A stretch of 64,000 nucleotides of DNA, taken from Bacteroidota bacterium. Its GTDB lineage: Bacteria; Bacteroidota; Bacteroidia; Bacteroidales; FEN-979. This document shows, one piece after another, positions 2,869 to 4,480 of this stretch. A program made the position numbers and the translations under genes. Numbering within the stretch: position 1 is the first letter of the stretch; each line of letters starts with the position of its first letter. The notes under the pieces were generated by a model. It did no database searches. It saw only the letters and a list, made by a program, of their open reading frames with translations, and was not told where the DNA came from. The stretch covers positions 1-64,000 of the forward strand of contig JAPLDH010000015.1 of assembly GCA_026391355.1 (NCBI GenBank), written 5' to 3'.

Positions 2869-3089
2869 ATTCAATTATACATTCATTTTATTACACATAT
2901 CCGGGATTAACCGTATATCCGGAGGGGAACGGCCCGGGAGCCGTCGCTCTATGGTGACCATCTCAAAGGTCTCGACGAATTTTTTCAGAAATAAATCCTT
3001 TGTATCGATATTTGGTTTTTAGTTCGTAAATTTACAAGACCATTGATCAGTCCGGGAGGTTTTAAGACGGACTGGCGTTAGCGGCAAGG
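2869..3089. repeat. Direct repeat, copy A (about 221 bp)
   Basis: This block is about 94-95 percent identical by eye to 3573-3794, differing by around a dozen substitutions and one T in a T-run. It starts at ATTCAATTAT and ends in GGCGTTAGCGGCAAGG, a GTTAG cassette-like core. It has no open frame of note. The PIN gene fragment begins immediately after it, so the repeat edge coincides with the point where that gene is cut. Confidence 0.9.
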
Positions 3090-3572: not shown

Positions 3573-3794
3573 ATTCAATTATCCATTCATTTTATAACAC
3601 ATATCCGGGATTAACCGTATATCCGGAGGGGACCGGCCCGGGAGCCGTCGCTCTATGGTGATCATCTCAAAGGTCTCAACGAATTTTTTTCAGAAATAAA
3701 TCCTTTGTATCGATATTTGGTTTTTAGTTCGTAAATTTACAAGACTATTGATCAGTCCGGGAGGTTTTGAGACAGACTGACGTTAGGGGTAAGG
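3573..3794. repeat. Direct repeat, copy B (about 222 bp)
   Basis: Second copy of the block at 2869-3089. It ends in GACGTTAGGGGTAAGG, so the cassette-like core differs in the last bases from copy A (GTTAGCGGC versus GTTAGGGGT). That is what one expects if the repeat is the shared part of the preceding unit and the last bases belong to the downstream cassette. The ORF6N gene follows. Confidence 0.9.
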
Positions 3795-3840
3795 TGGTAA
3801 AAAAAATCACAACCTCTAAGCTGTAAGAAACAATTTTGTA

Positions 3841-3871
3841 TAAATTTGAGGTATCACAAATTGTGATACCT
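3841..3871 (+). promoter_or_regulatory. ORF6N gene promoter with overlapping palindromic operator
   Basis: TAAATTTG (3841-3848) matches the Bacteroidota -7 consensus TAnnTTTG. One base later, at 3850-3870, is a palindrome with arms GGTATCACA and TGTGATACC around AAT, extended by one base pair on each side. It would cover the transcription start and lies 14 bases before the ATG at 3885, an ideal place for autorepression by the encoded DNA-binding protein. No good -33 box is visible. Confidence 0.65.
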
Positions 3872-3884
3872 TAAAACGGATCAG

Positions 3885-4406
3885 ATGAATCAATTACAAA
3901 TCATTAAGGAAGAAAACATAGCGAGTCATATATATTTTTTAAGAGGGCATAATGTGATCCTTGACTTTGATCTTGCTTCTTTATATGGGGTTGAAACAAG
4001 AATATTAAAACAAGCAGTCAAGCGTAATCTTAAGCGGTTCCCTGATGATTTTATGTTTAGATTATCTGAAAATGAAATTGACTTTGTGGTATCACAAAAT
4101 GTGATACCATCGAAGAGGTATCTTGGTGGAGCTATTCCTTTTGCTTTTAAAGAACAAGGTGTAGCTATGCTAAGTGGAGTTCTTAACAGTGATAAGGCCA
4201 TTCAAGTGAATATAACGATAATGAGAGCTTTTGTTCAGCTTAGAAAATTGATTTCAACTCATAAGGATTTAGTTGAGAAATTAAATCAATTTGAAAAGAA
4301 ATATGATGAACAATTCGCAATGGTTTTTGAAGCGCTGAGACAAATAATTCAAAAAGAATCTGAACCCAGAAAACGGATAGGATATAAAGATTTTGACGAG
4401 AAATAA
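3885..4406 (+). CDS. ORF6N-domain DNA-binding protein
   Basis: A 173-residue protein whose first 125 residues are a clear ORF6N domain, a KilA-N-related DNA-binding module of phages and mobile elements. Signature pieces are IYFLRGHNVILDFDLASLYGVETRILKQAVKRN (17-49), RFPDDFMFRLSENE (51-64), and FKEQGVAMLSGVLNSDKAIQVNITIMRAF (88-116). A C-terminal coiled-coil-like tail (125-173) is probably for dimerisation. It is a cassette-like unit: the start GTTAGGGGTAAGGTGG (3782-3797) is nearly the reverse complement of CCACCCTACCCCTAAC (4416-4431) after the stop. Its promoter carries a 9-3-9 palindrome, and the same arms occur inside its own codons 68-75, so autoregulation is likely. It may have been a phage or mobile-element regulator. 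Confidence 0.88.
   Translation: MNQLQIIKEENIASHIYFLRGHNVILDFDLASLYGVETRILKQAVKRNLKRFPDDFMFRLSENEIDFVVSQNVIPSKRYLGGAIPFAFKEQGVAMLSGVLNSDKAIQVNITIMRAFVQLRKLISTHKDLVEKLNQFEKKYDEQFAMVFEALRQIIQKESEPRKRIGYKDFDEK
4088..4108. promoter_or_regulatory. Intragenic copy of the ORF6N operator palindrome
   Basis: The arms GGTATCACA and TGTGATACC, separated here by AAA, are identical to the arms in the promoter at 3850-3870 and fall on codons for VVSQNVIP of the ORF6N protein. A second operator about 240 bases downstream of the first would fit looping repression. Confidence 0.55.
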
Positions 4407-4415
4407 AACTCTTTT

Positions 4416-4480
4416 CCACCCTACCCCTAACGAGCACTCAACCGCAACAAAACCAACAACGACGGCACTTTTCGAAGCAG
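4416..4480 (+). other. Cassette end with attC-like left half
   Basis: CCACCCTACCCCTAAC (4416-4431) is complementary to the start of the same unit at 3782-3797. It is followed by ACGAGCACTCAACCGCAACAAAACC, which parallels 1321-1345, and both continue to a shared CGACGG and CTT-CGAAG. The right half of a full site is missing: from about 4480 the DNA becomes an intron relic. Confidence 0.45.

Follow-up and report, generated by a model that had tools for sequence, protein, structure and literature searches.

Why should a gene for a presumed DNA-binding protein carry the same perfect palindrome twice, once beside its promoter and once within its own coding sequence? The question is raised by an ORF6N-domain gene near the start of the 64,000-nucleotide stretch of DNA analyzed here (the window), where the relevant elements are the following.

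3841–3848, plus strand: candidate −7 box TAAATTTG, picked by eye, which abuts the promoter palindrome
3849–3871, center 3860: candidate promoter operator with 11-bp perfect arms, of the same TCACA/TGTGA class as the intragenic copy
3885–4406, plus strand: ORF6N-domain gene of 173 amino acids, from the open reading frame list and a PF10543 match
3996–4025, plus strand: predicted recognition helix, residues 38–47, from the AlphaFold2 model and the residue/base association
4002–4004, 4011–4013 and 4023–4025: codons of I40, Q43 and R47, predicted to read, within each half-site, base pairs 5, 4 and 3
4084–4112, center 4098 (about ±14 bp), perfect arms 4087–4109: candidate intragenic operator, from the palindrome, its position in the family and its symmetry

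Residues 15–99 of the encoded protein match PF10543 with E = 2.9e-28 and 98.4 bits (cut-off 27.8), spanning profile positions 2–86 of 86. The promoter palindrome at 3850–3870 is exactly GGTATCACA-AAT-TGTGATACC and the intragenic one at 4088–4108 is exactly GGTATCACA-AAA-TGTGATACC, with the arms of both remaining perfect for one further base on each side (3849–3871 and 4087–4109). The first-pass annotation had located the two sites here, assigned the second to codons 68–75 of the ORF6N gene and judged two such arm pairs improbable by chance; positions and codons are as it described, and none of 100 dinucleotide shuffles produced two pairs. The octamer at 3841–3848 fits TAnnTTTG, which we take to be the Bacteroidota −7 box consensus. 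No third copy of the palindrome with up to three mismatches occurs elsewhere in the 64-kb window, and across the assembly (4.83 Mb in 81 contigs) the exact 21-mer pattern is found solely at the two window sites. Two more places in the genome lie three mismatches away, one of them (C35) inside another ORF6N gene. The genome holds six ORF6N genes, and in each of them a palindrome, perfect or nearly so, occupies the equivalent position of the domain, with TTCCA..TGGAA cores in one gene, TCGCA..TGCGA in four and TCACA..TGTGA in one, the window gene.

The intragenic site proves to be a property of much of the family. We assembled ORF6N genes from the window's own genome, 60 relatives, a 198-genome sample of the phylum and 38 other genomes with the window's palindrome, fetching no more than the 30 best-scoring loci per search and, by hand, part of the remainder; 316 domain hits were reduced to 262 genes by a 90% identity filter, and to 204 by setting aside 58 'pattern' genes. 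Arms of at least 8 bp centered at offsets 170–179 from the domain start occur in 119 of these 204 non-redundant genes, and all other 10-nt bins from −300 to +450 hold 0–4 genes each. Over 100 sets of synonymous-codon shuffles, arms of at least 8 bp were expected in 2.3 genes on average (maximum 8) versus 121 observed, and arms of at least 12 bp in 0.06 versus 69, which rules out codon usage as the source of the palindromes. Conservation in homologous loci, whose absence the annotation had said would refute its reading, is strongly positive. The longest arms reach 22 bp, forming a perfect 45-mer (locus L139). A scan of public genomes for GTATCACANNNTGTGATAC found at least 118 loci; among the matches listed, an ORF6N gene is present in 101, with the palindrome 150–185 nt past the domain start in 84 ORF6N loci, up to 330 nt upstream in 18, both upstream and intragenic in 5, and elsewhere in 4.

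As a control, 29 of 30 MerR-family loci were examined (one was omitted as short), and 2 of the 29 genes have such a palindrome within 330 nt, at two different places; in the same comparison 77 of 131 ORF6N genes have one, 72 of them in the same bin. Phage_pRha, for which MerR was substituted, proved unusable as a comparison family, with matches in 10 of 198 genomes and 9 of the 10 places coinciding with ORF6N places. Divergent phage-type ORF6N genes mostly go without the palindrome, a perfect one being found in 3 of 11 and one with 9 of 10 pairs in one more. Three phage-type loci (L373, L380 and L381) have a different intragenic palindrome, GTCCGAAWTTCGGAC, which encodes SEFRT at roughly the same place. 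As for a viral source, a scan gave no locus with the window protein as query and two with L004, and phage records numbered 5.

Of the genes with arms of at least 7 bp, 112 have the palindrome center at offset 174 and 21 have it at offset 172, so that the same DNA is read in two reading frames, as RSQIVTS (frame A) or as VTNCD/VTNCDR (frame B); 11 switches of frame are counted on a tree of the family. Frame-A sites are more symmetric than synonymous codons would predict over base pairs 1–14, with the exception of base pair 3, for which 0.98 is expected to begin with, and they return to expectation by base pairs 15–16. The free third base of the Ser TCN codon follows its partner base at +4, A going with T in 82 of 83 cases and G with C in 40 of 40. 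The window's own reading of this DNA, VVSQNVIP, had been described as a conserved segment in which protein and operator may be constrained together. Joint constraint is borne out, and the conservation of the peptide looks largely like an operator read as protein, since an operator of this kind is spelled elsewhere in the family as RSQIVTS or, in the other frame, as VTNCD.

Protein columns were scored against operator class (bases 3–5, with half-sites agreeing) in 195 frame-A genes; domain residue 30 ranked first, residue 60, which is itself encoded by the palindrome, second, and residue 27 third. Domain residues 27, 30 and 34, equivalent to I40, Q43 and R47 of the window protein, covary in that order with base pairs 5, 4 and 3, and occupy positions i, i+3 and i+7 of one predicted helix. 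Over 309 genes, base pair 4 follows residue 30 as Q-T (165/172), E-C (72/73), R-G (33/40), K-G (16/17) and L-C (2/2); base pair 5 follows residue 27 as R-G (72/74), N-A (16/18), Q-C (9/12) and V-G (76/77); and base pair 3 follows residue 34 as R-G (292/295) and N-T (8/8). Pairings of Q with A, E with C, R or K with G, and N with A are familiar residue–base contacts. For the window gene the three residues predict TCACA..TGTGA, and both window sites agree.

These counts are conditional on a recognizable site, because 16 of 262 genes with fewer than 5 of 7 pairs and no recognizable site were removed beforehand; the pattern genes, of which 53 are left, were chosen by palindrome and not by residue 30. 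In the genes from the window's own genome, its relatives and the phylum sample, a count that omits the pattern genes and the 'other' genes (those from genomes with the window's palindrome), the code holds in 106 of 125; the half-sites differ in 13 (12 with R30), 5 genes violate the code and 1 is unassigned. One gene (L003), scored as 'other' at this residue through an alignment gap, reads R..E by eye and fits, and a Q30 gene (L391) breaks the code with an intragenic site of GCG class, while its upstream sites are GTG in two of three. Judged by sequence, the covariation of residues 27, 30 and 34 with base pairs 5, 4 and 3 is strong.

A replication set, which played no part in deriving the code, was drawn from the phyla of a gammaproteobacterial (L067), a Nitrospiraceae (L026) and a Woesearchaeota (L015) genome, one of these phyla being archaeal; filtering left 63 genes from 85 loci, with 11 low-scoring phage-type genes examined apart. 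At least 6 of 8 pairs are present at the site in 62 of 63 genes (with the center set at whichever of five offsets paired best, a choice that slightly inflates pair counts), but perfect arms of at least 8 bp are seen in just 26 of them. By residue 30 alone, the code is kept by 50 of the 63 and violated by 5, with differing half-sites in the other 8. Where the site is symmetric and residue 30 is Q, E, K or R, the code fits in 261 of 264 genes. We mapped these states on a tree built without residues 27 and 30 and the palindrome-coded stretch, from short sequences with a median support of 0.79. Operator class changes about 56 times (90 with shuffled labels), the residue 57 times and both combined 58 times; the near-equality of these numbers arises because 261 of 264 tips fit, so they serve as a count of specificity switches and not as separate proof, and tree error could inflate the figure of about 56.

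In the AlphaFold2 model of the window protein, helix 38–47 lies in a block with a pLDDT of 93–95. Palindrome-coded residues 68–75 fall mostly within the lowest-confidence block of the domain (71–80, pLDDT 64), between two strands, and this block may be a place where sequence change could be tolerated. A sequence search for relatives of solved structure returned none, with two rows at chance level, and Foldseek with the window model gave no match at E≤0.001. VIA Z scores were 7.2 for Ski-like, 6.7 for Dachshund, 6.4 for granulovirus Orf22, 4.8 for the MerR-type RacA-DNA and 4.5 for HiNmlR-DNA; all are below 8, where a score may reflect merely a common arrangement, and the model hints at a winged-helix-like fold for ORF6N.

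A dyad conserved in the DNA, selection acting on the DNA itself and an association between residues and bases are direct results of these computations, and a dyad-symmetric site at the gene's own promoter or within the gene, as expected of an autoregulator, is present. We consider it very probable, on this comparative evidence, that ORF6N is an autorepressor with an operator inside its own gene, that its helix reads this operator, and that the two evolve as a unit. ORF6N proteins would be winged-helix-like regulators, presumably acting as dimers, whose main recognizable target is a 27–29 bp operator within their own coding sequence to which they would bind. The helix would read this site through domain residue 34 at base pair 3, residue 30 at base pair 4 and residue 27 at base pair 5. 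The bound protein would most likely repress its own gene, the intragenic site acting as a putative roadblock to transcription and, where a second copy sits at the promoter as in the window, the promoter probably being occluded as well. Operator and helix are no more than about 90 bp apart, and would therefore be inherited and transferred together, change as one unit and stay paired through recombination.

Copies upstream of the gene are informative for this reading. The annotation proposed looking for paired promoter and intragenic palindromes in other ORF6N genes; the intragenic member is widespread, but the core palindrome is found upstream in just 17 of 204 genes. Sites with an ORF6N core number 20 in 240 genes between −130 and −40 of the domain, and 29 in 236 genes between −320 and −40, compared with 1, 2, 3, 6 and 2 in five 280-nt control regions (220–239 genes). 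In a test that omits pattern genes and tandem genes, the nearest upstream site within 130 nt is of the class of the gene's own protein in 15 of 20 cases (shuffled mean 7.6, P 0.0002), and out to 320 nt in 15 of 23 (P 0.0009). One gene with a broken intragenic site (L196) has an upstream site of the predicted class. Sites of another class make up 5 of 20 proximal and 5 of 6 distal ones, and regulation is therefore not purely own-class; with tandem and pattern loci set aside, only 1 in 6 distal sites is of its own gene's class, which suggests cross-regulation among ORF6N paralogues. Upstream of L068, L354, L364, L247, L336 and L385 an own-class palindrome lies proximally, together with others, several of them of another class.

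It had also been proposed that promoter and intragenic copies cooperate by DNA looping. The window, L040, L112, L116, L189 and others do have both copies about 230–240 bp apart, but the upstream copy is confined to the small minority of genes given above, and no helical phase emerges from 24 hand-compiled spacings, pattern-selected loci included (Rayleigh p ~0.7 at 10.5 bp), so that they lend looping no support. Of the earlier proposal, autoregulation is supported, in that both palindromes look, as far as sequence can tell, like operators for the protein that the gene encodes, and looping finds no support as a general mechanism; we regard it as unlikely.

An equally improbable alternative is that the site serves a DNA transaction, such as recombination, gene conversion, homing or copy recognition, and not the control of transcription. 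Several ORF6N copies per genome speak for this idea (6 here, and 11 matches in G264), as do the tandems at L045 and L100. A scan of this genome with TCRCANNNTGYGA, which covered the TCRCA/TGYGA class pattern alone, found 20 places, and the 7 that are symmetric and A/T-centered are all in ORF6N loci, a restriction that counts for the autorepressor reading as well as for this one. Against it, four longer ORF6N forms examined have no nuclease or recombinase domain in Pfam, and class-matched upstream copies sit at operator-like positions. A nuclease or homing function was rejected on the same four proteins, where ORF6N alone scores above its cut-off and Phage_pRha, FliG_C, PhoX and Dna2_Rift fall below theirs. 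At L045, L100, L174 and L305, ORF6N genes or fragments of them stand in tandem, two to four per array.

Long perfect inverted repeats in transcribed DNA could in principle form an RNA hairpin in the mRNA, acting in attenuation or translation control. Such a stem tolerates G-U, yet arm mismatches of GU and AC type number 30 versus 30 at distances 3–9 from the center, 67 versus 76 at 10–16 and 7 versus 20 at 1–2; G-U is not preferred, which argues for a protein-bound DNA dyad and not an RNA stem. Base identity additionally tracks the helix residues, and we hold a hairpin to be very unlikely.

Still less credible is coevolution inside the protein, of residue 30 with residues 57/60, with the DNA passive. 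Residue 60 does vary among V, A and G as residue 30 changes, but residue 30 also predicts the choice among synonymous codons some 27 codons downstream: the Gly codon is GGA with K30 in 16 of 16 genes and GGC with R30 in 29 of 33, and the Ser TCN codon is TCA with Q30 in 150 of 152 and TCG with E30 in 56 of 57. Residue 30 therefore goes with a reading of DNA and not with coevolution within the protein. Frame-B genes, which were excluded from the derivation and encode other residues at the site, keep the DNA rule in 10 of 10 E30 and 11 of 13 Q30 genes, while the four R30 genes misfit a simple class, and the upstream copies obey in the 15 of 20 cases noted above. An inserted palindromic repeat of the Rickettsia palindromic element, REP or MITE type, kinds of element known to lie within genes in some cases, can be dismissed almost entirely, as the ORF6N site is confined to one codon position in one gene family, the window's site has no exact copies elsewhere in the genome, and its sequence is tied to protein residues.

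Returning to the autorepressor with its operator in its own gene, a broader version of this model would make ORF6N genes self-contained specificity modules whose main, perhaps only, targets are ORF6N genes, the own copy and paralogues alike, a closed network with a three-residue code; this version could as easily fail as hold.

Autoregulation through an internal site is a known kind of arrangement. The purR gene is autoregulated with a second operator within its coding sequence, and as proposed for ORF6N, this site lies in the regulator's own gene. The purR case is that of a single gene, and to our knowledge it has no family-wide fixed position, no two-frame encoding and no residue/operator code within the gene. 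The unusual features of ORF6N are a fixed codon position across much of the family, encoding in two frames and a within-gene code. Among the sites of LacI-family regulators, those in coding regions make up less than 1% (PMC4052901). The lac site in lacZ and the PurR site in purB described there are likewise binding sites within coding sequence (PMC4052901); they lie in target genes and are exceptions, whereas the ORF6N site is in the protein's own gene, at a fixed codon position and in several phyla. Coding palindromes of up to 284 bp are reported in protein genes of Nematomorpha mitochondria in the abstract of PMC6649704, and in both cases perfect inverted repeats lie in coding DNA with protein and DNA jointly constrained (PMC6649704). 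The difference from ORF6N is that the abstract refers to elements of secondary structure, with no mention of a DNA-binding protein (PMC6649704). A literature search, with subscription journals mostly outside its scope, returned no ORF6N operator, target or recognition code, and publications combining KilA-N with palindromes were unrelated in their titles and the opening of their abstracts.

Operators of repressors usually need experiments to find, and they drift apart from the gene of the protein that binds them. The 309 sampled ORF6N genes appear to contain their own operator, and would thus offer a readable protein–DNA code with many natural specificity switches. A likely target is thereby assigned to ORF6N, a family on which the literature search returned almost nothing, and protein residues that seem conserved or covarying receive an explanation with its cause in the DNA. 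There is a warning in this, in that covariation in protein alignments may stem from a binding site in the DNA. If the broader version of the model is true, the wiring of ORF6N networks could be read from sequence in bacteria and in an archaeal phylum. ORF6N genes would also supply candidate orthogonal repressor/operator pairs.

Several other features of the locus were observed. Inverted repeats of 21 nt at 3781–3801 and 4412–4432, 90% complementary, flank the window ORF6N gene. A short form of this bracketing motif is found around 1 of 67 ORF6N genes from the window's own genome and its relatives, and the repeats therefore seem peculiar to the window locus and were rejected as a feature of the family. 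A 90-nt direct repeat, 93% identical, lies at 3000–3089 ahead of the preceding small open reading frame and at 3705–3794 ahead of the ORF6N gene. Positions 4374–4388 encode a conserved C-terminal tail, R..IG[FY]K, which the alignment shows in short ORF6N proteins, and a loose [IV][GS][FY] pattern near the protein end is present in 162 of 262 ORF6N genes. On the minus strand, at 123–2609, open reading frames resemble by eye a group II intron reverse transcriptase broken into pieces.
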